Positions 3,275-63,863 of a stretch of DNA of 64,000 nucleotides are shown here, in pieces. Positions within the stretch are counted from its first letter, which is position 1, and every line of letters starts with the position of its first letter. The notes under the pieces were generated by a model. It saw nothing but the letters and a program-made list of their open reading frames with translations, searched no databases and had not been told where the DNA came from. A program made the position numbers and the translations under genes. The stretch is from Spongilla lacustris (Eukaryota; Porifera; Demospongiae; Spongillida; Spongillidae), in NCBI GenBank assembly GCA_949361645.1, contig OX442433.1, positions 6,896,029 through 6,960,028 of the forward strand, read 5' to 3'.

Positions 3275-12729
<9,455 letters not shown>

Positions 12730-24377: not shown

Positions 24378-24570
24378 TTTTTCTCTACTTGTTTTTCGTA
24401 CTATTATACGATTTCGAATGTCGCTAAACGTCTGTCGGATTTTTTTTATACTCGTCGCATGCGATGTGTTCGCGAATAATCTCGAAGGTCAAAGGTACAA
24501 AGGCCGTGGTCCATAGACTAGACGTAAACATGTTTCAGTGCACGTGACGTAGGTTGCCATAGAAATCATT
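24378..24570. promoter_or_regulatory. Probable bidirectional promoter, PB1 gene / TSNAXIP1
   Basis: 193 bp between divergent start codons. It contains cacgtgacgt (24541-24550), an E-box/CRE-like sequence. The functional claim is inference from spacing. Confidence 0.45.
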
Positions 24571-39300: not shown

Positions 39301-40423
39301 GGTGCAATGTGGGGGAGAAGGGTGGTGCAATGTGGGGGAGAAGAGTGGTGCAATGTGGGGGAGAAGAGTGGTGCAATGTGGGGGAGAAGAGTGGTGCAAT
39401 GTGGGGGAGAAGAGTGGTGCAATGTGGGAGAGAAGAGTGGTGCAATGTGGGGGAGAAGGGTGGTGCAATGTGGGGGAGAAGAGTGGTGCAATGTGGGAGA
39501 GAAGGGTGGTGCAATGTGGGGGAGAAGAGTGGTGCAATGTGGGGGAGAAGGGTGGTGCAATGTGGGGGAGAAGGGTGGTGCAATGTGGGGGAGAAGGGTG
39601 GTGCAATGTGGGGGAGAAGGGTGGTGCAATGTGGGGGAGAAGGGTGGTGCAATGTGGGAGAGAAGGGTGGTGCAATGTGGGGGAGAAGAGTGGTGCAATG
39701 TGGGGGAGAAGAGTGGTGCAATGTGGGGGAGAAGGGTGGTGCAATGTGGGGGAGAAGGGTGGTGCAATGTGGGAGAGAAGGGTGGTGCAATGTGGGGGAG
39801 AAGAGTGGTGCAATGTGGGGGAGAAGAGTGGTGCAATGTGGGGGAGAAGGGTGGTGCAATGTGGGGGAGAAGAGTGTGCAATGTGGGGGAGAAGAGTGGT
39901 GCAATGTGGGAGAGAAGGGTGGTGCAATGTGGGAGAGAAGGATGGTGCAATGTGGTAGAGAAAAGTGGTGCAATGTAGCAATGTAATTTTATCGCCCCCA
40001 AGTTGGGATGACTATTTTGACGGTGGCGCAATTGGGGACGGTTGTGGTTGAATTTTATGGGTGAAACTAAGGGAATTATTGATCTCCCCACGAATCCACG
40101 CAACCTACTTAAAAAGCCAGTACAAGAGCTAAATAATTTTGCGCACATCCCTCTAAGTATGACTCGTACTACTAACGTATGTGTCCAATGCCTTTAAACT
40201 ACATACACAAAAACGTGCACCATCATTTACCGCCCATCCACAGCGCGGGGTGCAACGGTCTGCAGGAGACCAGCAGCTGCAACAGAAGCAGCCCCGCCAC
40301 ACACGTCAGTAGTAGCCAAGTGGTACTGGCGACACACCGCCATCTGAATACCTGCAGGTGTAAAAGACGGTGGCTCTAGCTTCGCATACACAATAAACAA
40401 ATTACCTGTAAGAACCAAGGCAT
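29256..40423 (-). CDS. NDC1: Transmembrane nucleoporin NDC1
   Basis: 22 exons in gene order: 40406-40423, 40231-40351, 38262-38363, 35372-35531, 35258-35315, 34829-34894, 34593-34664, 34165-34201, 33003-33051, 32816-32948, 32644-32721, 32493-32574, 31603-31758, 31307-31414, 31164-31243, 30992-31075, 30598-30661, 30484-30542, 30341-30382, 30010-30109, 29371-29422, 29256-29304. Phases agree throughout and give 589 residues (human 674). Matches to vertebrate NDC1: [14 protein letters not shown] near the N-terminus, [41 protein letters not shown] then [28 protein letters not shown], and the end [11 protein letters not shown]. The N-terminal half carries about six membrane helices; the C-terminal half faces the cytoplasm. 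NDC1 anchors the nuclear pore (and yeast spindle pole body) in the envelope. The start MPWFLQ was fixed by phase. Exon 13's acceptor may lie 3 nt away. Confidence 0.93.
30141..30330. repeat. catcacatgcac repeat plus (CA)n
   Basis: In an NDC1 intron. The CA run ends against the donor of exon 30341-30382. Confidence 0.85.
30690..30965. repeat. CA/TA-rich simple repeat
   Basis: Imperfect acacatacac sequence filling the NDC1 intron between 30661 and 30992. Confidence 0.9.
33322..34008. repeat. 228-bp tandem triplication
   Basis: Three nearly identical 228/229-bp units begin accatttgaccttgtgtctg (33322, 33551, 33779), in NDC1 intron 8. They differ at only a few positions. No exon of NDC1 lies in them. 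Confidence 0.95.
34222..34563. repeat. About 28-bp minisatellite (caccacaagatgccatcagg)
   Basis: About 12 units between NDC1 exons 7 and 8. On the sense strand each unit begins CTCACCTGATGG. Confidence 0.9.
34986..35200. repeat. caatacaagcatcaacacac repeat
   Basis: Irregular units in an NDC1 intron. Confidence 0.8.
35604..36022. repeat. About 36-bp minisatellite (caatgaggtgagcaggtgca), about 11 copies
   Basis: In the long NDC1 intron 3, next to the gag remnant. Confidence 0.95.
36480..37739 (+). pseudogene. Decayed LTR-retrotransposon gag (Ty3/gypsy type) with internal minisatellite
   Basis: Plus-strand pieces in shifting frames match retrotransposon Gag: a FDGKSS block (about 36507), [12 protein letters not shown] (about 36545), [11 protein letters not shown] (about 37085), [18 protein letters not shown] (about 37205), then an ALELESFRL block in an open frame to 37739. 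A stop after LPKEGLRLR (about 37338) and several frameshifts break it. It lies antisense in NDC1 intron 3. No protease, reverse transcriptase or LTR was found. Gag forms the particle of such elements; this copy cannot be functional. Confidence 0.75.
36589..37080 (+). repeat. 36-bp minisatellite born inside gag, about 13 copies
   Basis: The unit begins gtagctaacctgtcctacag and is exactly 36 bp. It reads in the gag frame as the 12-residue repeat [12 protein letters not shown]. The position matches the Gag stretch that follows the [12 protein letters not shown] block, so the array grew by in-frame tandem duplication of part of gag. Confidence 0.9.
37990..38243. repeat. CA-rich simple repeat
   Basis: cacacaaacacacgcacaca-type repeats adjoining the donor of NDC1 exon 3. 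Confidence 0.9.
38478..39985. repeat. 23-bp minisatellite, about 65 copies
   Basis: The unit is gtggtgcaatgtgggggaga plus aga or agg, with an A/G and a G/A variant site. It occupies NDC1 intron 2. Open frames of about 500 codons on both strands arise because the unit lacks stops; they are not genes. Confidence 0.97.
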
Positions 40424-41040
40424 GGTTTAACGTTTCCAAAATTCGCACGTGCTCATAAATAAAAAATATTAGCCGTAATATTATTAATTACAGTTTAACG
40501 GAGCTGTTTGCCGTTCGGTCACGGAAGGAACTTGAAGCTTACAGAACAAGTCTTTTCAGGATCGGGCCGAGATAAGTAAGGCTTAAAATTGGCAGAAGTA
40601 ATTAGCTTTTTCTTGTACCCAATGTTGATGATTCAGATTGTTTACCAGACCTTTGGTTCAGATACGATAAAGTAAAATTGATTCAGATTGTATTACCATA
40701 GTATTTCCAAATGTATGGCTGCGTACAGTCTGAATCAACGCGGTATCCGATGAAGACCGGCCGGGACGCATTTACATATGTTTACCGCCCTAAATGTTTT
40801 TTAATTATTTATGGTTCGATTCGCAATAGAGCAATACAATACAAATACACATCTAAGCAGTACAGCATTACTCCTATCACGTTTGAAATGCAGTCTTTTC
40901 ATTGGCGAGTTCGTGTTCAATCTCTCTTCAAATTTGCGAACATAACAGTTGGGAACAATGGGAATGGCAGGCCTGTTTAACGTAGTTACAATCCATGGTA
41001 AAATATTCTTGGTAAAAAATGCCAATTTACACGTACCTAG
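40424..41040. other. NDC1 upstream / intergenic region
   Basis: The NDC1 promoter must lie in its left part. Short open frames on both strands (40711-40980, 40801-41025) show no recognisable protein. Confidence 0.45.
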
Positions 41041-41273: not shown

Positions 41274-44200
41274 TTAAGCATTCTCCTGGGAATATAAAAC
41301 ACATCATATTATATTAAGGTGCACCGGCATTATGCTCTTACCTGACAAAAGATGGATGGAACGATACCCACAACAAAATCCTCTCGTAGGCTGTGCAAGA
41401 TTTGAATATTAGCACTATTATAGTTCTGAAACCCCTTGATAGTTGTGTAGTTAAGACCAGCAGTCGCCAGAGTGATATGCTTTGCCTATATGTAACACAT
41501 ATGCCCATGTATATGAAGGTTAAAACGTTAACCTAGGTTAATGTGGGAGGTACCTTACGCATGCGAAGTCTGATAGAAGAAATGTCTCATGGCCACACTT
41601 GGTTGGTGATTCCTATTTTTCCTTCTTTCTCCAGACCATCATGGTCTGTGACTTCTTTTTTGGGAGCGACTGCTAACAAAACAACATTATGAACGCTCGC
41701 GGGACGTACGTAAGACAAGACATTTAATAACTAAATAGTAAAGATTAAGTATTCACTTACCAAAGCACCAGTCTTCGCAGGAGAAGTTGCGTGTGTGTGT
41801 GTGTGTGTGTCGGGGGTAGTGTTTGGGGAGAGGGAAACATGTGATGCATGTGTATACTTACCTTGTGGGGTACCTCTGACCTTGCCGATCTGAATTTTAG
41901 AAAATAGGCACCATTATAACTGCACTCCAAAACATTATGGCATCCACTGAGGAAAAAAATAATATGAAGAAATAATAAATAGATTGAGAAGGTACAAAAA
42001 TAAACAAAAGGAAAGACCAGAAAGAGAATTATAACTAAGTAGTAAAAATTATGTCTTTTCCTTACCAAAGCCCCAGTCTTCGAAGGAGAATTTGAAGTAG
42101 GTGTGTGAATGTGTGTGTGTGGGGTGTGTGTGTGGGGGGAGGGAGAAACATGTGATGCATGTGTATACTTACCTTGTGAGGTCTTCGCAAGGTCAGAGGT
42201 AGGTGGTACCTCTGACCTTGCCTATCTGAATTTTATAAAATAGCCACCATTATAACGGCACTCCAAGGAATTATGGCATGCACAAGTAATTCTATTCAAA
42301 GAAATTAGAAATACATTATTTGCTTATAGTTAGATTTGCATGTGAGCAGGGTGTGGCCTACAAGTAAGACGCAACACCCACGGCCCTTTTGGCAATCAAG
42401 ACCATTAACCCCCATAGAGAGGCCACACCCAGGCTCCTTCCTCAAATCCATTAACCCCATTCTGCCTATTGTACACACATGGCCTTTACAGTATTCATAC
42501 ATGTGCATCACAATTATGGAATAACTAAAGTGCACACCAAACATCATGCAGTAAGGATCTATTTATTTGTAAGCTGCATTCATATTCCATAAGGGTTATA
42601 ACACTTTGGAAACAAGAACTACTTTTTTGGGAGCGACTGCTAACAAAACAACTTTATGAACGCTCGCGGGACGTAAGTAAGACAAGACATTTAATAACTA
42701 AATAGTAAAGATGAAGTATTCACTTACCAAAGCACCAGTCTTCGCAGGAGAAGTTGAGTGTGTATGTGTGTGGAGGGTAGTGTGTGGGGAGGAGGAAACA
42801 TGTGATGCATGTGTATACTTACCTTGTGAGGTCTTCGCAAGGTCAGAGGTACCAGCTACCTCTGACCTTGCCGATCTGAAGTTTAGAAAATAAGCACCAT
42901 TATAACTGCACTACAAAACATTATGGCATCCACACGTATAGTAATGAGGAAAAAAATAATATGAAGAAATAATAAATAAATAGATTGAGAAGGTACAAAA
43001 ATAAATAAGAGGAAAGACCAGAAAGAGAATTATAACTAAGTAGTGGAAAAACCAGAAAGAGAATTATAACTAAGTAATAAAAATTACGTCCTCTTCTTAC
43101 CAAAGCTCCAGTCTTCGAAGAAGAATTTGAAGTAGGTGTGTGTGTGAGAGGTGTGTGTATGGGGGGAGGGGGAAATATGTGATGCATGTGCATTCTTACC
43201 TTGTGAGGTCTTCGCAAGGTCAGAGGTAGGTGGTACCTCTGACATTGCCGATCTGAATTTTAGAAAATAGGCACCATTATAACTGCACTACAAAACATTA
43301 TGGCATCCACACGTACAGTAATGAGGAAAAAAATAATATGAAGAAATAATAAATAAATAGATTGAGAAGGTACAAAAATAAATAAAAGGAAAGACCAGAA
43401 AGAGAATTATAACTAAGTAGTAAAAATTACGTCTTTTCCTTACCAAAGCCCCAGTCTTCGAAGGAGAATTTGAAGTAGGTGTGTGAATGTGTGTGTGGGG
43501 TGTGTGTGTGTGTGGGGGAGAGAGAAACATGTGATGCATGTGTATACTTACCTTGTGAGGTCTTCACAAGGTCAGAGGTAGGTGGTACCTCTGACCTTGC
43601 CGATCTGAATTTTAGAAAATAGGCACCATTAAAACTGCACTACAAAACATTATGGCATCCACATGTACAGTAATGAGGAAAAAAATAATATTAATAAATA
43701 GATTGAGAAGGTACAAAAATTAATAAAAGGAAAGTATGTAGTAAAAATTACGTCTTTTCCTTACCAAAGCCCCAGTCTTCGAAGGAGAATTTGAAGTAGG
43801 TGTGTGAATGTGTGTGTGTGTGGTGTGTGTGTGGTGTGTATGTGTGGGGTGTGTGTGTGTGGGGGGGAGAGAGAAACATGTGATGCGTGTGTATACTTAC
43901 CTTGTGAGGTCTTCGCAAGGTCAGAGGTACCAGCTACCTCTGACCTTGCTGATCTGAAGCTAGAAAAAAGGCACCATTATAACTGCACTACAAAACATTA
44001 TGGCATCCACACGTACAGTAATGAGGAAAAAAATAATATGAAGAAATAATAAATAAATAGATTGAGAAGGTACAAAAATAAATAAAAGGAAAGACCAGAA
44101 AGAGAATTATAACTAAGTAGTAAAAATTACGTCCTCTCCTTACCAAAGCTCCAGTCTTCGAAGGAGAATTTGAAGTAGGTGTGTGTGTGTGAGAGGTGTG

Positions 44201-47200
44201 TGTATGGGGGGAGGGGGAAATATGTGATGCATGTGTATACTTACCTTGTGAGGTCTTCGCAAGGTCAGAGGTAGGTGGTACCTCTAACCTTGCCGATCTG
44301 AATTTAAGAAAATAGGCACCATTATAACTGCACTCCAAGGAATTATGGCATGCACAAGTATATATTATATTCAAAGAAATTAGAAATACATTATTTGCTT
44401 ATAGTTAGATTTGCATGTGAGCAGGGTGTGGCCTACAAGGAGCAATTCTATTAACCCACGACTACCTCTGTAAGAGGCAACACCCACGGCCCTTTTGGCA
44501 ATCAAGACCATCAACCCCCATAGAGAGGCCACACCCAGGCTCCTTCCTCAAATCCATTAACCTCATTCTGCCTATTGTACACACATGGTCCTTTACAGTA
44601 TTCATACATGTGCATCACAATTATGGAATAACTAAAGTGCACACCAAACATCATGCAGTAAGGATCTATTTATTTGTAAGCTGCATTCATATATCATAAG
44701 GGTTATAACACTTTGGAAAAAAGAACTACTTTTTTGGGTGCGACTGCTAACAAAACAACTTTATGAACGCTCGCGGGACGTAAGTAAGACAAGACATTTA
44801 ATAACTAAATAGTAAAGATTGAGTATTCACTTACCAAAGCACCAGTCTTCGCAGGAGAAGTTGAGTGTGTATGTGTGTGGGGGGTAGTGTGTGGGGAGGG
44901 GGAAATATGTGATGCATGTGTATACTTACCTTGTGAGGTCTTCGCAAGGTCAGAGGTACTACCACTGACCTTGCTGATCTGAAGCTAGAAAAAAGGCACC
45001 ATTATAACTGCACTACAAAACATTATGGCATTCACACGTACAGTAATGAGGAAGAAAATAATATGAAGAAATAATAAATAAATAGATTGAGAAGGTACAA
45101 AAATAAATAAAAGGAAAGACCAGAAAGAGAATTATAACTAAGTAGTAAAAATTACATCCTCTCCTTACCAAAGCTCCAGTCTTCGAAGGAGAATTTGAAG
45201 TAGGTGTGTGTGTGAGAGGTGTGTGTATGGGGGGAGGGGGAAATATGTGATGCATGTGTATACTTACCTTGTGAGGTCTTCGCAAGGTCAGAGGTAGGTG
45301 GTACCTCTGACCTTGCCGATCTGAATTTTATAAAATAGCCACCATTATAACTGCACTCCAAGGAATTATGGCATGCACAAGTATATATTATATTCAAAGA
45401 AATTAGAAATACATTATTTGCTTATAGTTAGATTTGCATGTGAGCAGGGTGTGGCCTACAAGGAGCAATTCTATTAACCCACGACTACCTCTGTAAGAGG
45501 CAACACCCACGGCCCTTTTGGCAATCAAGACCATTAACCCCCATAGAGAGGCCACACCCAGGCTCCTTCCTCAAATCCATTAACCCCATTCTGCCTATTG
45601 TACACACATGGCCCTTTACAGTATTCATACATGTGCATCACAATTATGGAATAACTAAAGCGCACACCAAACATCATGCAGTAAGGATCTATTTATTTGT
45701 AAGCTGCATTCATATTCCATAAGGGTTATAACACTTTGGAAACAAGAACTACTTTTTTGGGAGCGACTGCTAACAAAACAACTTTATGAACGCTCGCGGG
45801 ACGTAAGTAAGACAAGACATTTAATAACTAAATAGTAAAGATGAAGTATTCACTTACCAAAGCACCAGTCTTCGCAGGAGAAATTGAGTGTGTATGTGTG
45901 TGGGGAGGAGGAAACATGTGATGCATGTGTATACTTACCTTGTGAGGTCTTCGCAAGGTCAGAGGTACCAGCTACCTCTGACCTTGCCGATCTGAAGTTT
46001 AGAAAAAAGGCACCATTATAACTGCACTACAAAACATTATGGCATCCACACGTATAGTAATGAGGAAAAAAATAATATGAAGAAATAATAAATAAATAGA
46101 TTGAGAAAGTACAAAAATAAATAAAAGGAAAGACCAGAAAGAGAATTATAACTAAGTAATAAAAATTACGTCCTCTTCTTACCAAAGCTCCAGTCTTCGA
46201 AGGAGAATTTGAAGTAGGTGTGTGTGTGAGAGGTGTGTGTATGGGGGGAGGGGGAAATATGTGATGCATGTGTATACTTACCTTGTGAGGTCTTCGCAAG
46301 GTCAGAGGTAGGTGGTACCTCTGACCTTGCCGATCTGAATTTTAGAAAATAGGCACCATTATAACTGCACTACAAACATTATGGCATCCACACGTACAGT
46401 AATGAGGAAAAAAATAATATGAAGAAATAATAAATAAATAGATTGAGAAGGTACAAAAATAAATAAAAGGAAAGACCAGAAAGAGAATTATAACTAAGTA
46501 GTAAAAATTACGTCTTTTCCTTACCAAAGCCCCAGTCTTCGAAGGAGAATTTGAAGTAGGTGTGTGAATGTGTGTGTGGGGTGTGTGTGTGTGTGTGGGG
46601 GAGAGAGAAACATGTGATGCATGTGTATACTTACCTTGTGAGGTCTTCACAAGGTCAGAGGTAGGTGGTACCTCTGACCTTGCCGATCTGAATTTTAGAA
46701 AATAGGCACCATTATAACTGCACTACAAAACATTATGGCATCCACATGTACAGTAATGAGGAAAAAAATAATATTAATAAATAGATTGAGAAGGTACAAA
46801 AATTAATAAAAGGAAAGTATGTAGTAAAAATTACGTCTTTTCCTTACCAAAGCCCCAGTCTTCGAAGGAGAATTTGAAGTAGGTGTGTGAATGTGTGTGT
46901 GTGGTGTGTGTGTGGTGTGTATGTGTGGGGTGTGTGTGTGGGGGGGGGAGAGAGAAACATGTGATGCATGTGTATACTTACCTTGTGAGGTCTTCGCAAG
47001 GTCAGAGGTAGGTGGTACCTCTGACCTTGCAGATCTGAATTTTATAAAATAGCCACCATTATAACTGCACTCCAAGGAATTATGGCATGCACAAGTATAC
47101 ATTATATTCAAAGAAATTAGAAATACATTATTTGCTTATAGTTAGATTTGCATGTGAGCAGGGTGTGGCCTACAAGGAGCAATTCTATTAACCCACGACT

Positions 47201-50200
47201 ACCTCTGTAAGAGGCAACACACACGGCCCTTTTGGCAATCAAGACCAATAACCCCCATAGAGAGGCCACACCCAGGCTCCTTCCTCAAATCCATTAACCC
47301 CATTCTGCCTATTGTACACACATGGCCCTTTACAGTATTCATACATGTGCATCACAATTATGGAATAACTAAAGCGCACACCAAACATCATGCACTAAGG
47401 ATCTATTTATTTGTAAGCTGCATTCATATTTCATAAGGGTTATAACACACAAGAACTACTTTTTTGGGAGCGACTGCTAACAAGACAACTTTATGAACGC
47501 TCGCGGGACGTAAGTAAGACAAGACATTTAATAACTAAATGGTAAAGATTACATATTCACTTACCAAAGCACCAGTCTTCGCAGGAGAAGTTGCATGTGT
47601 ATGTGTGTGGTGTGGGGGGTAGTGTTTGGGGAGGGGGAAACATGTGATGCATGTGTATACTTACCTTGTGAGGTCTTCGCAAGGTCAGAGGTACCAGCTA
47701 CCTCTGACCTTGCCGATCTGAAGTTTAGAAAAAAGGCACCATTATAACTGCACTACAAAACATTATGGCATCCACACGTACAGTCATGAGGGGAAAAAAT
47801 AATATGAAGAAATAATATATAAATAGATTGAGAAGGTACAAAAATAAATAAAAGGAAAGACCAGAAAGAGAATTATAACTAAGTAGTAAAAATTATGTCT
47901 TTTCCTTACCAAAGCTCTAGTCTTCGAAGGAGAATTTGAAGTAGGTGTGTGAATGTGTGTGTGAGGGGTGTGTGTATGTGGGGAGGGGGAAATATGTGAT
48001 GCATGTGTATACTTACCTTGTGAGGTCTTCGCAAGGTCAGAGGTACCAGCTACCTCTGACCTTGCCGATCTGAGTTTTAGAAAATAAGCACCATTATAAC
48101 TGCACTCCAAAACATTATGGCATCCACACGTATAGTATTGAGGAAAAAAATAATATGAAGAAATAATAAATAAATAGATTGAGAAGGTACAAAAATAAAT
48201 AAAAGGAAAGACCAGAAAGAGAATTATAACTAAGTAGTAAAAATTACGTACTCTCCTTACCAACGCTCCAGTCTTCGAAGGAGAATTTGAAGTAAGTGTG
48301 TGTGTGAGGGGTGTGTGTATGGGGGGAGAGGGAAATATGTGATGCATGTGTATACTTACCTTGTGAGGTCTTCGCAAGGTCAGAGGTACCAGCTACCTCT
48401 GACCTTGCCGATCTGAGTTTTAGAAAATAGGCACCATTATAACTGCACTACAAAACATTATGGCATCCACACGTACAGTAATGAGGAAAAAAATAATATG
48501 AAGAAATAATTAATAAATAGATTGAGAAGGTACAAAAATAAATAAAAGGAAAGACCAGAAAGAGAATTATAACTAAGTAGTAAAAATTACGTCTTTTCCT
48601 TACCAAAGCCCCAGTCTTCGAAGGAGAATTTAAAGTAGGTGTGTGAATGTGTGTGTGTGTGGGGTGTGTGTGTGTGTGGGGGAGAGAGAAACATGTGATG
48701 CGTGTGTATGCTTACCTTGTGAGGTCTTCGCAAGGTCAGAGGTAGGTGGTACCTCTGACCTTGCAGATCTGAATTTTATAAAATAGCCACCATTATAACT
48801 GCACTCCAAGGAATTATGGCATGCACAAGTATATATTATATTCAAAAAAATTAGAAATACATTATTTGCTTATAGTTAGATTTGCATGTGAGCAGGGTGT
48901 GGCCTACAAGGAGCAATTCTATTAACCCACTTCTACCTCTGTAATAGGCAATACCTACGGCCCTTTTGGCAATCAAGACCAATAACCCCCATAGAGAGGC
49001 CACACCCAGACTCCTTCCTCAAATCCATTAACCCCATTCTGCCTATTGTACACACATGGCCTTTACAGTATTCATACATGTGCATCACAATTATGGAATA
49101 ACTAAAGCGCACACCAAACATCATGCACTAAGGATCTATTTATTTGTAAGCTGCATTCATATTTCATAAGGGTTATAACACACAAGAACTACTTTTTTGG
49201 GAGCGACTGCTAACAAGACAACTTTATGAACGCTCGCGGGACGTAAGTAAGACAAGACATTTAATAACTAAATAGTAAAGATTAAGTATTCACTTACCAA
49301 AGCACCAGTCCTCGCAGGAGAAGTTGAGTGTGTATGTGTGTGGGGGGTAGTGTGTGGGGAGGGGGAAACATGTGATGCATGTGTATACTTACCTTGTGAG
49401 GTCTTCGCAAGGTCAGAGGTACCAGCTACCTCTGACCTTGCCGATCTGAAGTTTAGAAAATAAGTATCATTTTAACTGCACTCCAAAACATTATGGCATC
49501 CACACGTATAGTAATAAGGAAAAAAATAATATGAAGAAATAATTAATAAATAGATTGAGAAGGTACAAAAATAAATAAAAGAAAAGACCAGAAAGAGAAT
49601 TATAACTAAGTAGTAAAAATTATGTCTTTTCCTTACCAAAGCCCCAGTCTTCGAAGGAGAATTTGAAGTAGGTGTGTGAATGTGTGTGTGTGGGGTGTGT
49701 GTGTGTGGGGTGTGTGTGTGTGGGGGAGAGTGAAACATGTGATGCATGTGTATTCTTACCTTGCGAGGTCTTCGCAAGGTCAGAGGTACCAGCTACCTCT
49801 GACCTTGCTGATCTGAGTTTTAGAAAATAGGCACCATTATAACTGCACTACAAAACATTATGGCATCCACACGTACAGTAATGAGGAAAAAAATAATATG
49901 AAGAAATAATGAATAAATAGATTGAGAAGGTACAAAAATAAATAAAAGGAAAGACCAGAAAGAGAATTATAACTAAGTAGTAAAAATTACGACTTTTCCT
50001 TACCAAAGCCCCAGTATTCGAAGGAGAATTTGAAGTAGGTGTGTGAATGTGTGTGTGGGGTTTGTGTGTGTGTGGGGGAGAGAGAAACATGTGATGCATG
50101 TGTATACTTACCTTGTGAGGTCTTCGCAAGGTCAGAGGTAGGTGGTACCTCTGACCTTGCAGATCTGAATTTTATAAAATAGCCACCATTATAACTGCAC

Positions 50201-53200
50201 TCCAAGGAATTATGGCATGCACATGTATATATTATATTCAAATATATTATTTGCTTATAGTCAGATTTGCACGTGAGCAGGGTGTGGCCTACAAGGAGCA
50301 ATTCTATTAACCCACGACTACCTCTGTAAGAGGCAACACCCACGGCCCTTTTGGCAATCAAGACCTTTAACCCCTATAGAGAGGCCACACCCAGGCTCTT
50401 TCCTCAAATCCATTAACCCCATTCTGCCTATTGTACACACATGGCCCTTTACAGTATTCATACGTGCATCACAATTATGGCACACCAAACATCATGCACT
50501 AAGGATCTAATTATTTGTAAGCTGCATTCATATTTCATAAGGGTTATAACACTTTGGAAACAAGAACTACATTTTTGGGAGCAACTGCTAACAAAACAAA
50601 TTTATGAACGCTCGCGGGACGTAAGTAAGACAAGACATTTAATAACTAAATAGTAAAGATTACATATTCACTTACCAAAGCACCAGTCTTCGCAGGAGAA
50701 GTTGAGTGTGTATGTGTGTGGGGGGTAGTGTGTGGGGAAGGGGAAACATGTGATGCATGTGTATACTTACCTTGTGAGGTCTTCGCAAGGTCAGAGGTAC
50801 CAGCTACCTCTGACCTTGCCGATCTGAAGTTTAGAAAAAAGGCACCATTATAACTGCACTACAAAACATTATGGCATCCACACGTACAGTAATGAGGAAA
50901 AAAATAATATGAAGAAATAATAAATAAATAGATTGAGAAGGTACAAAAATAAATAAAAGGAAAGACCAGAAAGAGAATTATAACTAAGTAGTAAAAATTA
51001 CGTCTTTTCCTTACCAAAGCCCCAGTCTTCGAAGGAGAATTTAAAGTAGGTGTGTGAATGTGTGTGTGTGTGGGGTGTGTGTGTGTGGGGTGTGTGTGTG
51101 GGGTGTGTGTGTGTGGGGTGTGTGTGTGTGGGGTGTGTGTGTGTGGGGTGTGTGTGGGGTGTGTGTGTGTGGGGTGTGTGTGTGTGGGGGAGAGTGAAAC
51201 ATGTGATGCATGTGTATTCTTACCTTGCGAGGTCTTCGCAAGGTCAGAGGTACCAGCTACCTCTGACCTTGCTGATCTGAGTTTTAGAAAATAGGCACCA
51301 TTATAACTGCACTACAAAACATTATGGCATCCACACGTACAGTAATGAGGAAAAAAATAATATGAAGAAATAATGAATAAATAGATTGAGAAGGTACAAA
51401 AATAAATAAAAGGAAAGACCAGAAAGAGAATTATAACTAAGTAGTAAAAATTACGACTTTTCCTTACCAAAGCCCCAGTATTCGAAGGAGAATTTGAAGT
51501 AGGTGTGTGAATGTGTGTGTGGGGTTTGTGTGTGTGTGGGGGAGAGAGAAACATGTGATGCATGTGTATACTTACCTTGTGAGGTCTTCGCAAGGTCAGA
51601 GGTAGGTGGTACCTCTGACCTTGCAGATCTGAATTTTATAAAATAGCCACCATTATAACTGCACTCCAAGGAATTATGGCATGCACATGTATATATTATA
51701 TTCAAATATATTATTTGCTTATAGTCAGATTTGCACGTGAGCAGGGTGTGGCCTACAAGGAGCAATTCTATTAACCCACGACTACCTCTGTAAGAGGCAA
51801 CACCCACGGCCCTTTTGGCAATCAAGACCTTTAACCCCTATAGAGAGGCCACACCCAGGCTCTTTCCTCAAATCCATTAACCCCATTCTGCCTATTGTAC
51901 ACACATGGCCCTTTACAGTATTCATACGTGCATCACAATTATGGCACACCAAACATCATGCACTAAGGATCTAATTATTTGTAAGCTGCATTCATATTTC
52001 ATAAGGGTTATAACACTTTGGAAACAAGAACTACATTTTTGGGAGCAACTGCTAACAAAACAAATTTATGAACGCTCGCGGGACGTAAGTAAGACAAGAC
52101 ATTTAATAACTAAATAGTAAAGATTACATATTCACTTACCAAAGCACCAGTCTTCGCAGGAGAAGTTGAGTGTGTATGTGTGTGGGGGGTAGTGTGTGGG
52201 GAAGGGGAAACATGTGATGCATGTGTATACTTACCTTGTGAGGTCTTCGCAAGGTCAGAGGTACCAGCTACCTCTGACCTTGCCGATCTGAAGTTTAGAA
52301 AAAAGGCACCATTATAACTGCACTACAAAACATTATGGCATCCACACGTACAGTAATGAGGAAAAAAATAATATGAAGAAATAATAAATAAATAGATTGA
52401 GAAGGTACAAAAATAAATAAAAGGAAAGACCAGAAAGAGAATTATAACTAAGTAGTAAAAATTACGTCTTTTCCTTACCAAAGCCCCAGTCTTCGAAGGA
52501 GAATTTAAAGTAGGTGTGTGAATGTGTGTGTGTGTGGGGTGTGTGTGTGTGGGGTGTGTGTGTGGGGTGTGTGTGTGTGGGGTGTGTGTGTGGGGTGTGT
52601 GTGTGGGGTGTGTGTGTGTGGGGGAGAGAGAAACATGTGATGCGTGTGTATGCTTACCTTGTGAGGTCTTCGCAAGGTCAGAGGTAGGTGGTACCTCTGA
52701 CCTTGCAGATCTGAATTTTATAAAATAGCCACCATTATAACTGCACTCCAAGGAATTATGGCATGCACAAGTATATATTATATTCAAAGAAATTAGAAAT
52801 ACATTATTTGCTTATAGTTAGATTTGCATGTGAGCAGGGTGTGGCCTACAAGGAGCAATTCTATTAACCCACTTCTACCTCTGTAATAGGCAATACCTAC
52901 GGCCCTTTTGGCAATCAAGACCAATAACCCCCATAGAGAGGCCACACCCAGGCTCCTTCCTCAAATCCATTAACCCCATTCTGCCTATTGTACACACATG
53001 GTCCTTTACAGTATTCATACATGTGCATCACAATTATGGAATAACTAAAGTGCACACCAAACATCATGCAGTAAGGATCTATTTATTTGTAAGCTGCATT
53101 CATATTTCATAAGGGTTATAACACTTTGGAAAAAAGAACTACTTTTTTGGGAGCGACTGCTAACAAAACAACTTTATGAACGCTCTCGGGACGTAAGTAA

Positions 53201-56200
53201 GACAAGACATTTAATAACTAAATAGTAAAGATTAAGTATTCACTTACCAAAGCACCAGTCTTCGCAGGAGAAGTTGCGTGTGTATGTGTGTGGGGGGTAG
53301 TGTTTGGGGAAGGGGAAACATGTGATGCATGTGTATACTTACCTTGTGAGGTCTTCGCAAGGTCAGAGGTACTACCACTGACCTTGCTGATCTGAAGCTA
53401 GAAAAAAGGCACCATTATAACTGCACTACAAAACATTATGGCATTCACACGTACAGTAATGAGGAAGAAAATAATATGAAGAAATAATAAATAAATAGAT
53501 TGAGAAGGTACAAAAATAAATAAAAGGAAAGACCAGAAAGAGAATTATAACTAAGTAGTAAAAATTACATCCTCTCCTTACCAAAGCTCCAGTCTTCGAA
53601 GGAGAATTTGAAGTAGGTGTGTGTGTGAGAGGTGTGTGTATGGGGGGAGGGGGAAATATGTGATGCATGTGTATACTTACCTTGTGAGGTCTTCGCAAGG
53701 TCAGAGGTAGGTGGTACCTCTGACCTTGCAGATCTGAATTTTATAAAATAGCCACCATTATAACTGCACTCCAAGGAATTATGGCATGCACAAGTATATA
53801 TTATATTCAAAGAAATTAGAAATACATTATTTGCTTATAGTTAGATTTGCATGTGAGCAGGGTGTGGCCTACAAGGAGCAATTCTATTAACCCGCGACTA
53901 CCTCTGTAAGAGGCAACACACACGGCCCTTTTGGCAATCAAGACCAATAACCCCCATAGAGAGGCCACACCCAGGCTCCTTCCTCAAATCCATTAACCCC
54001 ATTCTGCCTATTGTACACACATGGCCCTTTACAGTATTCATACATGTGCATCACAATTATGGAATAACTAAAGCGCACACCAAACATCATGCACTAAGGA
54101 TCTATTTATTTGTAAGCTGCATTCATATTCCATAAGGGTTATAACACTTTGGAAACAAGAACTACTTTTTTGGGAGCGACTGCTAACAAAACAACTTTAT
54201 GAACGCTCGCGGGACGTAAGTAAGACAAGACATTTAATAACTAAATAGTAAAGATGAAGTATTCACTTACCAAAGCACCAGTCTTCGCAGGAGAAATTGA
54301 GTGTGTATGTGTGTGGGGAGGAGGAAACATGTGATGCATGTGTATACTTACCTTGTGAGGTCTTCGCAAGGTCAGAGGTACCAGCTACCTCTGACCTTGC
54401 CGATCTGAAGTTTAGAAAATAAGCACCATTATAACTGCACTACAAAACATTATGGCAACCACACGTATAGTAATGAGGAAAAAAATAATATGAAGAAATA
54501 ATAAATAAATAGATTGAGAAAGTACAAAAATAAATAAAAGGAAAGACCAGAAAGAGAATTATAACTAAGTAATAAAAATTACGTCCTCTTCTTACCAAAG
54601 CTCCAGTCTTCGAAGGAGAATTTGAAGTAGGTGTGTGTGTGAGAGGTGTGTGTATGGGGGGAGGGGGAAATATGTGATGCATGTGTATACTTACCTTGTG
54701 AGGTCTTCGCAAGGTCAGAGGTAGGTGGTACCTCTGACCTTGCCGATCTGAATTTTAGAAAATAGGCACCATTATAACTGCACTACAAACATTATGGCAT
54801 CCACACGTACAGTAATGAGGAAAAAAATAATATGAAGAAATAATAAATAAATAGATTGAGAAGGTACAAAAATAAATAAAAGGAAAGACCAGAAAGAGAA
54901 TTATAACTAAGTAGTAAAAATTACGTCTTTTCCTTACCAAAGCCCCAGTCTTCGAAGGAGAATTTGAAGTAGGTGTGTGAATGTGTGTGTGGGGTGTGTG
55001 TGTGTGTGTGGGGGAGAGAGAAACATGTGATGCATGTGTATACTTACCTTGTGAGGTCTTCACAAGGTCAGAGGTAGGTGGTACCTCTGACCTTGCCGAT
55101 CTGAATTTTAGAAAATAGGCACCATTATAACTGCACTACAAAACATTATGGCATCCACATGTACAGTAATGAGGAAAAAAATAATATTAATAAATAGATT
55201 GAGAAGGTACAAAAATTAATAAAAGGAAAGTATGTAGTAAAAATTACGTCTTTTCCTTACCAAAGCCCCAGTCTTCGAAGGAGAATTTGAAGTAGGTGTG
55301 TGAATGTGTGTGTGTGGTGTGTGTATGGTGTGTGTGTGGTGTGTGTGTGGTGTGTATGTGTGGGGTGTGTGTGTGGGGGGGGAGAGAGAAACATGTGATG
55401 CATGTGTATACTTACCTTGTGAGGTCTTCGCAAGGTCAGAGGTAGGTGGTACCTCTGACCTTGCAGATCTGAATTTTATAAAATAGCCACCATTATAACT
55501 GCACTCCAAGGAATTATGGCATGCACAAGTATACATTATATTCAAAGAAATTAGAAATACATTATTTGCTTATAGTTAGATTTGCATGTGAGCAGGGTGT
55601 GGCCTACAAGGAGCAATTCTATTAACCCACGACTACCTCTGTAAGAGGCAACACACACGGCCCTTTTGGCAATCAAGACCAATAACCCCCATAGAGAGGC
55701 CACACCCAGGCTCCTTCCTCAAATCCATTAACCCCATTCTGCCTATTGTACACACATGGCCCTTTACAGTATTCATACATGTGCATCACAATTATGGAAT
55801 AACTAAAGCGCACACCAAACATCATGCACTAAGGATCTATTTATTTGTAAGCTGCATTCATATTTCATAAGGGTTATAACACACCAGAACTACTTTTTTG
55901 GGAGCGACTGCTAACAAGACAACTTTATGAACGCTCGCGGGACGTAAGTAAGACAAGACATTTAATAACTAAATGGTAAAGATTACATATTCACTTACCA
56001 AAGCACCAGTCTTCGCAGGAGAAGTTGCGTGTGTATGTGTGTGGGGGGTAGTGTGTGGGGAGGAGGAAACATGTGATGCATGTGTATACTTACCTTGTGA
56101 GGTCTTCGCAAGGTCAGAGGTACCAGCTACCTCTGACCTTGCCGATCTGAAGTTTAGAAAAAAGGCACCATTATAACTGCACTACAAAACATTATGGCAT

Positions 56201-59200
56201 CCACACGTACAGTCATGAGGGGAAAAAATAATATGAAGAAATAATATATAAATAGATTGAGAAGGTACAAAGATAAATAAAAGGAAAGACCAGAAAGAGA
56301 ATTATAACTAAGTAGTAAAAATTATGTCTTTTCCTTACCAAAGCTCTAGTCTTCGAAGGAGAATTTGAAGTAGGTGTGTGAATGTGTGTGTGAGGGGTGT
56401 GTGTATGTGGGGAGGGGGAAATATGTGATGCATGTGTATACTTACCTTGTGAGGTCTTCGCAAGGTCAGAGGTACCAGCTACCTCTGACCTTGCCGATCT
56501 GAGTTTTAGAAAATAAGCACCATTATAACTGCACTCCAAAACATTATGGCATCCACACGTATAGTATTGAGGAAAAAAATAATATGAAGAAATAATAAAT
56601 AAATAGATTGAGAAGGTACAAAAATAAATAAAAGGAAAGACCAGAAAGAGAATTATAACTAAGTAGTAAAAATTACCACCTCTCCTTACCAACGCTCCAG
56701 TCTTCGAAGGAGAATTTGAAGTAAGTGTGTGTGTGAGGGGTGTGTGTATGTGGGGAGGGGGAAATATGTGATGCATGTGTATACTTACCTTGTGAGGTCT
56801 TCGCAAGGTCAGAGGTACCAGCTACCTCTGACCTTGCCTATCTGAGTTTTAGAAAATAAGCACCATTATAACTGCACTCCAAAACATTATGGCATCCACA
56901 CGTACAGTAATGAGGAAAAAAATAATATGAAGAAATAATTAATAAATAGATTGAGAAGGTACAAAAATAAATAAAAGGAAAGACCAGAAAGAGAATTATA
57001 ACTAAGTAGTAAAAATTACGTCCTCTCCTTACCAACGCTCCAGTCTTCGAAGGAGAATTTGAAGTAAGTGTGTGTGAGGGGTGTGTGTATGGGGGGAGAG
57101 GGAAATATGTGATGCATGTGTATACTTACCTTGTGAGGTCTTCGCAAGGTCAGAGGTACCAGCTACCTCTGACCTTGCCGATCTGAGTTTTAGAAAATAA
57201 GCACCATTATAACTGCACTCCAAAACATTATGGCATCCACACGTACAGTAATGAGGAAAAAAATAATATGAAGAAATAATTAATAAATAGATTGAGAAGG
57301 TACAAAAATAAATAAAAGGAAAGACCAGAAAGAGAATTATAACTAAGTAGTAAAAATTACGTCCTCTCCTTACCAACGCTCCAGTCTTCGAAGGAGAATT
57401 TGAAGTAAGTGTGTGTGAGGGGTGTGTGTATGGGGGGAGAGGGAAATATGTGATGCATGTGTATACTTACCTTGTGAGGTCTTCGCAAGGTCAGAGGTAC
57501 CAGCTACCTCTGACCTTGCCGATCTGAGTTTTAGAAAAAAGGCACCATTATAACTGCACTACAAAACATTATGGCATCCACACGTACAGTAATGAGGAAA
57601 AAAATAATATGAAGAAATAATAAATAAATAGATTGAGAAGGTACAAAAATAAATAAAAGGAAAGACCAGAAAGAGAATTATAACTAAGTAGTAAAAATTA
57701 CGTCTTTTCCTTACCAAAGCCCCAGTCTTCGAAGGAGAATTTAAAGTAGGTGTGTGAATGTGTGTGTGTGTGGGGTGTGTGTGTGTGGGGGGGAGAGAGA
57801 AACATGTGATGCGTGTGTATGCTTACCTTGTGAGGTCTTCGCAAGGTCAGAGGTAGGTGGTACCTCTGACCTTGCAGATCTGAATTTTATAAAATAGCCA
57901 CCATTATAACTGCACTCCAAGGAATTATGGCATGCACAAGTATATATTATATTCAAAGAAATTAGAAATACATTATTTGCTTATAGTTAGATTTGCATGT
58001 GAGCAGGGTGTGGCCTACAAGGAGCAATTCTATTAACCCACTTCTACCTCTGTAATAGGCAATACCTACGGCCCTTTTGGCAATCAAGACCAATAACCCC
58101 ATAGAGAGGCCACACCCAGGCTCCTTCCTCAAATCCATTAACCCCATTCTGCCTATTGTACACACATGGCCCTTTACAGTATTCATACATGTGCATCACA
58201 ATTATGGAATAACTAAAGCGCACACCAAACATCATGCACTAAGGATCTATTTATTTGTAAGCTGCATTCATATTTCATAAGGGTTATAACACACCAGAAC
58301 TACTTTTTTGGGAGCGACTGCTAACAAGACAACTTTATGAACGCTCGCGGGACGTAAGTAAGACAAGACATTTAATAACTAAATGGTAAAGATTACATAT
58401 TCACTTACCAAAGCACCAGTCTTCGCAGGAGAAGTTGCATGTGTATGTGTGTGGGGGGTAGTGTTTGGGGAGGAGGAAACATGTGATGCATGTGTATACT
58501 TACCTTGTGAGGTCTTCGCAAGGTCAGAGGTACCAGCTACCTCTGACCTTGCCGATCTGAAGTTTAGAAAAAAGGCACCATTATAACTGCACTACAAAAC
58601 ATTATGGCATCCACACGTACAGTCATGAGGGGAAAAAATAATATGAAGAAATAATAAATAAATAGATTGAGAAGGTACAAAAATAAATAAAAGGAAAGAC
58701 CAGAAAGAGAATTATAACTAAGTAGTAAAAATTATGTCTTTTCCTTACCAAAGCTCTAGTCTTCGAAGGAGAATTTGAAGTAGGTGTGTGAATGTGTGTG
58801 TGAGGGGTGTGTGTATGTGGGGAGGGGGAAATATGTGATGCATGTGTATACTTACCTTGTGAGGTCTTCGCAAGGTCAGAGGTACCAGCTACCTCTGACC
58901 TTGCCGATCTGAGTTTTAGAAAATAAGCACCATTATAACTGCACTCCAAAACATTATGGCATCCACACGTATAGTATTGAGGAAAAAAATAATATGAAGA
59001 AATAATAAATAAATAGATTGAGAAGGTACAAAAATAAATAAAAGGAAAGACCAGAAAGAGAATTATAACTAAGTAGTAAAAATTACCACCTCTCCTTACC
59101 AACGCTCCAGTCTTCGAAGGAGAATTTGAAGTAAGTGTGTGTGTGAGGGGTGTGTGTATGTGGGGAGGGGGAAATATGTGATGCATGTGTATACTTACCT

Positions 59201-62200
59201 TGTGAGGTCTTCGCAAGGTCAGAGGTACCAGCTACCTCTGACCTTGCCGATCTGAGTTTTAGAAAATAGGCACCATTATAACTGCACTACAAAACATTAT
59301 GGCATCCACACGTACAGTAATGAGGAAAAAAATAATATGAAGAAATAATAAATAAATAGATTGAGAAGGTACAAAAATAAATAAAAGGAAAGACCAGAAA
59401 GAGAATTATAACTAAGTAGTAAAAATTACGTCTTTTCCTTACCAAAGCCCCAGTCTTCGAAGGAGAATTTAAAGTAGGTGTGTGAATGTGTGTGTGTGTG
59501 GGGTGTGTGTGTGTGGGGGGGAGAGAGAAACATGTGATGCGTGTGTATGCTTACCTTGTGAGGTCTTCGCAAGGTCAGAGGTAGGTGGTACCTCTGACCT
59601 TGCAGATCTGAATTTTATAAAATAGCCACCATTATAACTGCACTCCAAGGAATTATGGCATGCACAAGTATATATTATATTCAAAGAAATTAGAAATACA
59701 TTATTTGCTTATAGTTAGATTTGCATGTGAGCAGGGTGTGGCCTACAAGGAGCAATTCTATTAACCCACTTCTACCTCTGTAATAGGCAATACCTACGGC
59801 CCTTTTGGCAATCAAGACCAATAACCCCCATAGAGAGGCCACACCCAGGCTCCTTCCTCAAATCCATTAACCCCATTCTGCCTATTGTACACACATGGCC
59901 CTTTACAGTATTCATACATGTGCATCACAATTATGGAATAACTAAAGCGCACACCAAACATCATGCACTAAGGATCTAATTATTTGTAAGCTGCATTCAT
60001 ATTTCATAAGGGTTATAACACTTTGGAAACAAGAACTACATTTTTGGGAGCGACTGCTAACAAAACAAATTTATGAACGCTCGCGGGACGTAAGTAAGAC
60101 AAGACATTAAGTATTCACTTACCAAAGCACCAGTCTTCGCAGGAGAATTTGAAGTAGGTGTGTGTGTGAGGGGTGTGTGTATGGGGGAAGGGGGAAATAT
60201 GTGATGCATGTGTATACTTACCTTGTGAGGTCTTCGCAAGGTCAGAGGTACCAGCTACCTCTGACCTTGCCGATCTGAAGTTTAGAAAAAAGGCACCATT
60301 ATAACTGCACTACAAAACATTATGGCATCCACACGTACAGTAATGAGGAAAAAAATAATATGAAGAAATAATAAATAAATAGATTGAGAAGGTACAAAAA
60401 TAAATAAAAGGAAAGACCAGAAAGAGAATTATAACTAAGTAGTAAAAATTACGTCCTCTCCTTACCAAAGCTCCAGTCTTCGAGGAGAATTTGAAGTAGG
60501 TGTGTGTGTGAGGGGTGTGTGTATGGGGGAAGGGGGAAATATGTGATGCATGTGTATACTTACCTTGTGAGGTCTTCGCAAGGTCAGAGGTAGGTGGTAC
60601 CTCTGACCTTGCCGATCTGACGTTTAGAAAATAGGCACCATTATAACTGCACTACAAAACATTATGGCATCCACACGTACAGTAATGAGGAAAAAAATAA
60701 TATGAAGAAATAATTAATAAATAGATTGAGAAGGTACAAAAATAAATAAAAGGAAAGACCAGAAAGAGAATTATAACTAAGTAGTAAAAATTACGTCTTT
60801 TCCTTACCAAAGCCCCAGTCTTCGAAGGAGAATTAAGTAGGTGTGTGAATGTGTGTGTGGGGTGTGTGTGTGTGGGTGTGTGTGTGTGGTGTGTGTGTGG
60901 GGTGTGTGTGTGGGGGAGAGAGAAACATGTGATGCATGTGTATACTTACCTTGTGAGGTCTTCGCAAGGTCAGAGGTAGGTGGTACCTCTGACCTTGCAG
61001 ATCTGAATTTTATAAAATAGCCACCATTATAACTGCACTCCAAGGAATTATGGCATGCACAAGTATATATTATATTCAAAGAAATAAGAAATACATTATT
61101 TGCTTATAGTTAGATTTGCATGTGAGCAGGGTGTGGCCTACAAGGAGCAATTCTATTAACCCACAACTACCTCTGTAAGAGGTAACACCCACGGCCCTTT
61201 TGGTAATCAAGACCATTAACCCCTATAGAGAGGCCACACCCAGGCTCCTTCCTCAAATCCATTAACCTCATTCTGCCTATTGTACACACATGGCCTTTAC
61301 AGTATTCATACATGTGCATCACAATTATGGAATAACTAAAGCGCACACCAAACATCATGCAGTAAGGATCTATTTATTTGTAAGCTGCATTCATATTTCA
61401 TAAGAGTTATAACACTTTGGAAACAAGAACTACATTTTTGGGAGCAACTGCTAACAAAACAACATGATGAACGCTCGCGGGACGTAAGTAAGACAAGACA
61501 TTTAATAACTAAATAGTAAAGATTAAGTATTCACTTACCAAAGCACCAGTCTTCGCAGGAGAAGTTGCGTGTGTATGTGTGTGGTGTGGAGGGGTAGTGT
61601 GTGGGGAAGGGGAAACATGTGATGCATGTGTATACTTACCTTGTGAGGTCTTCGCAAGGTCAGAGGTACCAGTTACCTCTGACCTTGCCGATCTGAATTT
61701 TAGAAAATAGGCACCATTATAACTGCACTACAAAACATTATGGCATCCACACGTACAGTAATGAGGAAAAAAATAATATGAAGAAATGATATATAAATAG
61801 ATTGAGAAGGTACAAAAATAAATAAAAGGAAAGACCAGAAAGAGAATTATAACTAAGTAGTAAAAATTATCCAAAGCCCCAGTCTTCGAATGAGAATTCG
61901 AAGTAGGTGTGTGAATGTGTGTGTGTGTGGGGTGGGAGAGAAACATGTGATGCATGTGTATACTTACCTTGTGAGGTCTTTGCAAGGTCAGAGGTAGGTG
62001 GTACCTCTGACTTTGCCGATCTGAAGTTTAGAAAAAAGGTACCATTATAACTGCACTACAAAACATTATGGCATCCACACATATCGTAATGAGGAAAAAA
62101 TAATATGAAGAAATAATAAATAAATTGATTGAGAAAGTGCAAAAATAAAGATCAGAAAGAGAATAATAAGTGAGTAGTAAAAATTACGCTTGCACTTACC

Positions 62201-63863
62201 AAAGCCCCAGTCTTTGCTGGATAAGAGCTGATCATGAGGCGTTTTCGTATGGTCAGAGGTAGGCAAAATTATTGATCTGAAATTCAGTATATAGTCACCA
62301 TGATAACTGCACACCTAAACATAATGGTATGCGAACATATTGTATGAACCCGAGAAATAATAAGTTAATGAAGGATCGACTAGAGACGGGATAACTAATG
62401 AGAAGTACGTTGAGTACTTCTAAAACGCTCGTTCTTACCCGTCCTTAGTCGTCTTACATCACTATGTAGGCTACTATACGTATACAGAACGTACGCGCGG
62501 CGGTGTCATATGCCTACGTGGTATGTGTTGTCGTTGGATCATGGACGCGCGGTGCAGAATTAACGAGTTCATGTCATGCTGGTTTCTCACATTACATCTA
62601 ACGCTTCGCCTTGCTCCATAACCAGGGGCGGATGCAGGGTTTTGGCGAGCGGGGGGTCCCACATGAATAATTGATGAAGGGAGGGGCGCGCGCGAAAAAA
62701 AAAAAAATTGTGCTGCGCATTATAATTTTTACACAGAATTTATTGGAAAGTATGGCAATCAACACCAATAAATGTGTGCCACTCGGTTACGTTCTGGTTT
62801 CCAGGCTATTGTGGTTTTTAAAAGGCTGCATGTGTTTCTATATACGCCGGCTTAGTTTCGATTCTTAGCTATGTTAAAATTCTGTAAAAGCTTGCACCAA
62901 GGTGCATTCAACTTTGACAGGTACTAATACTAGCGCACCAATCAAAATTATTATAATTGCGGAAAGAATCACTCTATTACGACCGCGGGTTAGCATTTTG
63001 GAATACATTTAGATTTACGTATAAATACCAGCCTACTACATTATCTCGCAGTTTACAGAAGTACTAACCAATGAATAAGCAATAAGAATAAGCTGTTTAG
63101 CAATTTCACGCTGAACTCTCAGTAGAAATGTATAGCTCACGTGCGCCGATCATACGCTAATTATACATTATTATTTCATATTCAGGTTCGAGGGGGTCAT
63201 CGTTAAGTACATTGGGTCTGGGTACGAGACTACAGCTGAAACTATGATGTAATTACTTTTTGCGTACGTTCTTTTGTAAAGGTTAGCGTCTCGCGTACCC
63301 TATCAGCTGATCCACGTGCCCAAATCAAATTGGCAACCGAATTCATGGCAACGGTATGTACCAGCCGCTAGCGTATTCAATGTAACAGCTTATACTGTAA
63401 TCACTCTTGTGCATACCTACGCTTACAATTAGGTCCCCGCCGGCCTCATATACGACTATAATATTGTGTAACTCACGTGGTCCCGTCATGTTGGATGTAT
63501 TCTGATGCACCCATGGGAGCAGGTTATCCAAAATAATAGCAGAGCGTCGAACAGACTCACGCACATATATACATCAAAATGCAGCCACGCAATAAGGCTA
63601 CTTTGTAACTGCACTAGTAACTGACGTACCAGAGGCAGCAAAACTGTAGCTTGCGTCGCGAAGCCAGAAAAATAGAGCAGTGCAATTGAGTGTTTTTCGT
63701 TCTCTCCGTCTGTTATATTATTACCTTCTTTCTTTCTGGGTGAGTATAACTCGCAATAGGAACGGTTTTAAAGAGCGACAACTATACCAAGGCAATGGCT
63801 ATAGAATTTCCTGGAAGAACATCAGATACTTGAAAACAATTACAGGATCCACAAGATGGCCAA
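41274..63863 (-). CDS. Unrecognised gene whose intron holds the cassette array (5' end outside window)
   Basis: Proposed exons in gene order: 63788-63863, 63362-63555, 63167-63235, 62200-62276, [array], 41599-41672, 41342-41485, 41274-41285. Phases agree at every step (2-0, 0-2, 2-2, 2-1, 1-0, 0-0, stop). The right-hand exons encode WPSCGSCNCFQVSDVLPG and AIILDNLLPWVHQNTSNM. Exon 62200-62276 encodes LPTSDHTKTPHD and ends DWGF. The constant 3' exons encode VAPKKEVTDHDGLEKEGK, then LNYTTIKGFQNYNSANIQ, and finish ENA-stop. I do not recognise the protein and name no function. The weakest exon is 63167-63235, which may be repeat-derived. The donor of exon 41599-41672 (GTGTGG) is poor. The gene continues beyond 64000. 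Confidence 0.55.
44900..48500. repeat. Block duplicated 8.41 kb to the right (about 53.3-56.9 kb)
   Basis: Features at 45013, 46027, 46342 and 47784 recur at 53426, 54440, 54755 and 56213 (offsets 8413 to 8429) with nearly identical sequence, including the private variant aggtactaccactgacc (44955 and 53369). This is a recent large segmental duplication inside the array. Confidence 0.85.
49800..52750. repeat. 1464-bp tandem duplication inside the array
   Basis: Sequence from about 49.8 kb recurs exactly 1464 bp further on (for example 49848 to 51312, 49987 to 51451, 50441 to 51905) with almost no difference except (TG)n length. A similar 2410-bp shift links about 55.9-57 kb with 58.3-59.4 kb. 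Confidence 0.9.
62633..62700. mobile_element. hAT-like terminal repeat, single end
   Basis: CAGGGGCGGATGCAGG followed by G-rich sequence matches the left end of the element at 1184. No partner end was found in the window to 64000, so it is solo, truncated or extends beyond the edge. Confidence 0.45.

Follow-up and report, generated by a model that had tools for sequence, protein, structure and literature searches.

What could a run of 46 near-identical, exon-like cassettes stand for in the genome of a sponge? The question is raised by a 64,000-nucleotide stretch of Spongilla lacustris (GenBank assembly GCA_949361645.1, contig OX442433.1, positions 6,896,029 to 6,960,028 of the forward strand), here called the window and numbered from its first letter, the minus strand of which carries a tandem array of short cassettes with splice sites at their borders. 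An earlier note on this DNA had taken the array for an exon of a protein gene that was amplified inside its own intron. We examined the array and searched the genome (248.6 Mb, 51 contigs) for its relatives, and the reading that we favour is a family of genes for spliced non-coding RNAs, about 17-18 paralogous units, in which the repeated unit would be a hairpin exon; from the sequence evidence given below we put its probability at about 0.5.

The array of cassettes in the window

Each unit of the array (Table 1) begins with an exon-like segment, exon a, which is followed by a CA-rich mini-intron of 69-197 nt, by exon b, a segment of 12 nt that ends at a second donor, and by a longer intron. 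All 46 copies of exon a are on the minus strand between 41862 and 62020 and are 53 nt long in 43 copies, 49 nt in two and 28 nt in one. They are preceded by CAG in 46/46 and followed by GT in 46/46, the donor being GTAAGT in 39 copies, GTAAGC in four and GTAAGA in three. The first patterns used for exon a included the splice sites themselves, with mismatches allowed; when the copies were recounted with anchors free of splice sites, AG was found in 45/45 and GT in 45/45. Exon b, which reads GAAG/ACTGGNGCTTTG or a close variant of it, has 47 copies, the end of the exon at 62200-62276 included, with a GT donor in 46 of these, and its acceptor is GAAT in two copies and GAGG in one instead of GAAG. 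Exons a and b together make up the cassette length of 65 nt (53 + 12) that the earlier note had given, and its description of about 46 splice-competent tandem cassettes, near-identical and not diversified, downstream of a related exon is likewise borne out by these counts.

The spacing of the units is mostly 330-390 or 660-690 bp. The long units contain an insert with a further acceptor, TTTTGTTAGCAG/TCGCTCCC, which is present 14 times (first exon bases 61447, 60053, 58317 ... 42636, 41669), and AATAAA followed by a GT-rich stretch is present 10 times; these stretches are possible terminal exons, judging from their sequence. The array had been placed between the supposed host exon and a constant exon at 41672. 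The minus-strand interval from 62276 to 41669 does hold the array, but what is found at 41672 is not a constant exon; it is the 14th copy of the repeated acceptor, cut off by unrelated DNA.

A family of arrays behind a common 5' region

DNA searches of the genome showed that the array unit is present on other contigs too. There are 464 exact hairpins (pattern with a 9-nt spacer) and 437 exact exon-donor patterns (253 + 184) genome-wide, and none of either in the control. The block upstream of the array (63420-63720, the 5' block) was found at 18 places on 11 contigs, from 19 matches of which two are on the small contig C41, and a second 5' motif was found at 16 places and not in the control. 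At 17 of the 18 places at least one cassette lies downstream of the 5' block in the same orientation. With the window array as locus C20, the 5' block and co-oriented cassettes are seen at C20, C22, C5 9.83M, C5 10.08M, C5 10.21M, C6, C41 and C19, and further at C9 1.56M, C9 1.35M, C9 1.20M, C9 1.64M, C13 and C17; at C12 a single diverged cassette stands where the examined piece ends, at C4 1.48M and C5 9.52M the cassettes were assigned by position, and at C4 4.46M no cassette was found within the 20 kb examined. Amplification within the intron of one gene does not account for like arrays that stand behind the same 5' region at so many places, and this part of the earlier proposal is not supported. 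A sparse array at C4:7925976-7932402 (C4 7.93M) has seven exact donor-pattern matches, and the 5' block was not matched there.

Six arrays that were followed whole have 46 (C20), 20 (C22), 31, 18 and 10 (three C5 loci) and 53 (C6) donor sites. From 11 loci, whole or partial, 190 cassettes with the 5' arm of the hairpin were extracted, and AG precedes exon a in 185 and GT follows it in all 190 of them, a conservation which suggests that the cassettes are spliced. Eight cassettes without the 5' arm were kept apart from these.

The dispersal over 11 contigs might be that of a mobile element carrying a tandem array inside it, and by eye there are retroelement-like open reading frames near several loci. 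No open reading frame shared by the loci was noticed, however, no common 3' end was found beyond the five arrays compared, and the upstream homology reaches different points in different loci, as it does in segmental duplication, so that we consider a mobile element highly improbable.

In C9, C13, C17, C19, C6 and C22 the space from the 5' region to the array holds one to three short copies per locus of the type GATGACC[A/T]CTGAC.TTGCGAAGAC..CTC.AG/GTAAGTAT, which lack the 5' hairpin arm. Compared by eye with the 5' arm of the cassettes, they show complementarity at 13 of 14 bases; they may represent first exons or cassettes of an ancestral kind.

Of 100 listed places, five that do not belong to the arrays were picked and read by eye. 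Two solitary copies on C3 (C3:189k and C3:2.29M) keep the full hairpin. The longest alignments (about 200-250 nt) of the copy at C3:189k with array units show 74-76% identity, and in this copy both arms are kept, the tail is changed and the donor, GTATGT, is still valid. A third copy is older and imperfect and adjoins a stretch like exon 2 of the 5' region, the fourth is half an element, and the fifth place, on C1, looks like chance.

The hairpin and what is conserved

On folding, exon a forms a hairpin with a stem of 15-16 bp and a loop of 4-5 nt, and for the C6-type exon a the hairpin has 15 bp and an energy of -28.5 kcal/mol (z -6.45). To see which parts of the unit are kept between loci, 10 locus consensuses, built from 43, 19, 31, 18, 10, 51, 3, 5, 3 and 1 units, were compared by their mean pairwise difference, gaps being scored as differences. 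The difference is 0.014 in each of the 5' arm, the 3' arm and the tail of exon a and 0.000 in donor a, and the 7-nt loop, at 0.486, diverges more than any other part. For the 3' splice site the difference is 0.137, for the 20 nt after donor a 0.111, for exon b 0.069 and for donor b 0.093, and in the intron regions it is 0.247 upstream, 0.290 in the rest of the mini-intron and 0.286 after exon b. When C6, the unit of which is 220 bp and is without part of the intron, was left out, the intron values became 0.164, 0.290 and 0.242, and the others scarcely changed. Invariant columns make up 26/28 in the arms compared to 42/129 in the background (55/129 without C6), a comparison for which Fisher values are only descriptive because the columns are not independent. 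Within five arrays the per-site difference is 0-0.016 for the arms and 0.136-0.201 for the stretch that follows exon b. Among 186 cassettes, pair 15, beside the loop, is A-T in 124, G-T in 55, G-C in five and broken in two, and pair 14 is T-A in 175, A-T in three and broken in eight. The loops of exon a in C22 occur in both orientations, TAGCTGGTA and TACCAGCTA, as if the centre of the palindrome had flipped.

Such units could also be functionless segmental duplicates, that is, satellite units with a palindrome whose arms are kept by palindrome-driven gene conversion and whose splice-like sites are left over from an ancestral exon. The tandem organisation, the inverted loops of C22 (TAGCTGGTA and TACCAGCTA), the degenerate solitary copies, the absence of a common 3' partner and the C6 array, which is near-homogeneous even in the mini-intron, are all consistent with this. 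What is difficult to reconcile with it is that a loop at the centre of a converted palindrome should become homogeneous, yet the loop is the part that diverges most between loci (0.486), that invariance equal to that of the arms extends beyond the palindrome to the 14-nt tail and the donor, that exon b and the donors of the 5' region are also kept, and that the 5' region and the cassettes are co-oriented at 17/18 places. A satellite without function would show no constraint on sub-parts of its unit, and constraint is what we found. We consider this explanation unlikely, though serious, and homogenisation stays a partial alternative.

The constraint on the arms and not on the loop would also be expected if the palindrome were a DNA element, for example the site of a dimeric protein, and the array a cluster of enhancers or binding sites downstream of a promoter. 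The inverted symmetry with a free spacer fits this, and the palindrome is kept in the donor-less copy at C3:2.29M, but the conserved acceptor, the tail, donor a, exon b, donor b and the fixed orientation are left unexplained, and we regard a DNA element as improbable. The arms contain AGGTCA, a nuclear-receptor half-site, and each arm of exon a in the window holds CAAGGTCA / TGACCTTG, which we take to resemble such half-sites.

The 5' region and the supposed host exon

The 5' region was aligned across 12 loci. A promoter-like stretch is located at 64191-64098, just outside the window end, and has motifs which we take to be NRF1-like and YY1-like. The first candidate donor, GTAAGT at 64041, is kept in 9/9 loci that cover the position. 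The donor of candidate exon 2 is GTAAGT, GTACGT or GTATGT in 11/12 loci and GTACAG in C5a, and that of candidate exon 3 is GTGAGT in 11/12 loci and GTGAAT in C19. Both exons have internal insertions and deletions that are not multiples of three.

The exon at 62200-62276, which had been taken for the host exon of a protein gene, has full-length relatives at three C5 loci with 80-84% DNA identity and a 60-nt version at C12. These five exons are 77, 68, 73, 73 and 60 nt long, and the frame ending in DWGF or its equivalent is open in C20 and C5a and has a stop in C5b, C5c and C12. The exon has no hairpin (fold z 0.34). Judged by its paralogues it is no conserved coding exon, and the exon at 63167, from which junctions to the cassettes had also been envisaged, lies outside the stretches conserved between paralogues, and its site, AAT/GTATAA, is weak by eye.

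These results bear directly on the proposal of the earlier note that the cassettes are mutually exclusive protein-coding exons of a host gene. The 65-nt cassettes do have valid sites, and exon a in the proposed frame is open in 44/46 copies in the window and in 129/144 elsewhere, but the near-identity of the copies alone could produce these open frames. On the other side, the paralogous host exons differ in length and 3/5 of them have stops, there is no constant downstream exon, the copies are undiversified, all three exon-a copies seen at C41 are 1 nt short (52 nt), and the one minus-strand frame scanned beside the array (40227-40487) is without a Pfam match. With this little sampling, one frame beside the array against Pfam, no coding partner of the array was recognised. 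We hold coding cassettes to be very improbable indeed.

A proposed family of spliced hairpin RNA genes

Taken together, the near-invariant arms, the loop that varies by locus, the acceptors, the two donors, the fixed orientation and the promoter-like start are best fitted by a spliced, structured non-coding RNA. Transcription by RNA polymerase II would start at the promoter-like stretch and proceed through non-coding 5' exons into the array, and the cassettes would be spliced into a non-coding RNA of repeated hairpins. Our guess, which is drawn by analogy with PNCTR (see below), is that such an RNA would act by valency, as a multivalent scaffold or decoy that displays the same hairpin many times over and so binds or sequesters an RNA-binding protein. 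Tentatively, these loci may represent a new class of animal RNA gene whose transcripts splice tens of identical hairpin exons and in which the number of cassettes in the genome and their splicing set the valency. The arms of one cassette are complementary to those of the others and could steer the choice of cassette. When the 65-nt module was folded, a second stem between the exon-a tail and the G-rich exon b was possible in 6/6 loop/exon-b variants, with weaker pairing for ACTGGAGCTTTG and ACTGGTGCTTTG than for ACTGGGGCTTTG; we propose this stem only tentatively.

Several findings weigh against a family of spliced hairpin RNA genes. The downstream flanks of five arrays, compared as DNA only, gave no match in 8/10 locus pairs and no common 3' end, and the remaining pairs gave a 29-bp match (C5a and C5b) and a segmental duplication (C5b and C5c). 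In the 5' region the acceptor of exon 3 is found in 10/12 loci and is deleted in C20 and C6, and high conservation extends to the supposed intron 1, which makes the map of the 5' exons provisional. The solitary copy at C3:2.29M keeps the hairpin and has lost the donor. Within arrays the loop varies only in C20 (0.282) and C22 (0.206) and is near-constant in C5a, C5b and C6 (0, 0.032 and 0.011), and the mini-intron of C6 is near-constant as well (0.032). Several of the 10 consensuses were built from 1-5 units, and homogenisation of the arrays inflates conservation within them. Finally, the pair count on 11 selected variants is no higher than in shuffles (195/500 as high). Covariation is near-absent because the arms hardly vary, and since this leaves too little variation, we have argued for the structure from invariance and energy.

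If these genes are transcribed and spliced, they would provide a repeat RNA of an early-branching animal of which the copy number, the exon structure and the hairpin shape can be read from the genome. About 17 natural paralogues with 10 to 53 donor sites (six whole arrays) would then make RNA valency directly testable, and the family would be a clear case of tandem exon arrays in which conservation serves the structure of an RNA instead of variety among proteins. It is also a warning against taking such arrays for Dscam-like diversity.

Comparison with known systems

The SNORD116 and SNORD115 clusters of SNHG14 consist of 29 and 48 tandem introns (PMC11608373). The likeness lies in a long non-coding spliced unit with dozens of near-identical tandem exon-intron units, and tandem repeated non-coding exons with splice sites are indeed present in the sponge as sequence, from which their splicing is inferred. 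In SNHG14 the product, a small nucleolar RNA (snoRNA), is in the intron, whereas in the sponge family the introns are divergent and the exon hairpin is conserved, and SNHG14 is one locus compared to about 17 in the sponge. PNCTR is a short-tandem-repeat RNA that sequesters PTBP1, a transcript of RNA polymerase I with linear motifs in simple repeats (PMC6224606). It resembles the sponge family in being non-coding and in repeating a single recognition motif hundreds of times, which is why it served as the model for our guess on valency, and differs in that its motifs are linear, unlike the one hairpin per exon-like cassette in the sponge. Gomafu/MIAT, with its repeats, is likewise a non-coding RNA with a multi-copy motif, and many copies of a motif in a non-coding locus are what is found here. 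Tandem exons of the SNHG14 type and repeat RNAs like PNCTR are the nearest known systems, and neither matches.

Dscam shares with the sponge arrays the tandem alternative cassettes between flanking exons and the involvement of RNA pairing. Its cassettes are coding and diversified and have constant flanks, whereas those of the sponge are near-identical and apparently non-coding and have no constant 3' exon; the frame is not kept in the exon and its paralogues, and the downstream acceptor is present 14 times and not once. Spliced-leader RNA genes carry a short exon with a strong donor in hundreds of tandem copies on many chromosomes. The sponge family also has hundreds of short exons with a strong donor, and a spliced leader was considered because of this donor and the tandem copy number. 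It was rejected, as a leader has no upstream 3' splice site and exon a has a conserved one (AG 185/190); reading by eye only, we noticed no Sm site after donor a.

Two further candidates were rejected. A box C/D snoRNA hosted in the intron was looked for in 149 units, in the first 290 bases behind exon a (165 for C6), and one of the 149 has a C-like box with a D box and none has an exact C box. The Rfam search, which alone covered box H/ACA, gave nothing at the gathering score and one sub-threshold match at chance level. The stem of a microRNA precursor is about 20 bp or more, and that of exon a, 15-16 bp, is too short.

An exact pattern scan gave no matches in viral contigs and none in prokaryote-genome contigs, which says little about other sponges. 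A 42-residue piece of the array frame had six matches in a set of 5.8 billion proteins, on contigs of 235, 375 and 569 kb, which are taken to be Spongilla lacustris's own sequences and also say little about other sponges. A literature search, mostly of abstract-level listings, found no description of such a family.

Other features of the window

Table 1. Positions in the window of the array, its parts and the exons of the 5' region
Feature	Position	Strand	Remarks
Tandem array	41761..62020	minus	46 units: exon a + mini-intron + exon b + longer intron
First exon a	61968..62020	minus	
Last exon a, 28-nt truncated copy	41862-41889	minus	
Last exon b, 12 nt	41761..41772	minus	GAAG begins 41776
Repeated acceptor TTTTGTTAGCAG/TCGCTCCC (splice point between them), 14 copies in long units	41669..61447	minus	
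Candidate non-coding exon 2	63630..63863	minus	acceptor ..TTTTACAG before 63863; donor GTACGT from 63629
Candidate exon 3	63477..63533	minus	donor GTGAGT from 63476; upper boundary from alignment
Single cassette-like exon, 77 nt, without hairpin (supposed host exon)	62200..62276	minus	

Elsewhere in the window, the stretch 5829-40000 has very many minisatellites, including a 229-bp unit repeated three times (33321-34008) and a 23-bp unit repeated 65 times (38473-39976). On the minus strand there are an exon of a serine carboxypeptidase (Peptidase_S10) at 8470-8697 and a gene for a PB1-domain protein at 23544-24485, which matched 52 proteins, its own included, and has a diverged paralogue on the opposite side of the array. 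TSNAXIP1_N is matched by an exon on the plus strand at 25209-25566, and a protein encoded in the window shares 73% identity with one of Ephydatia muelleri.

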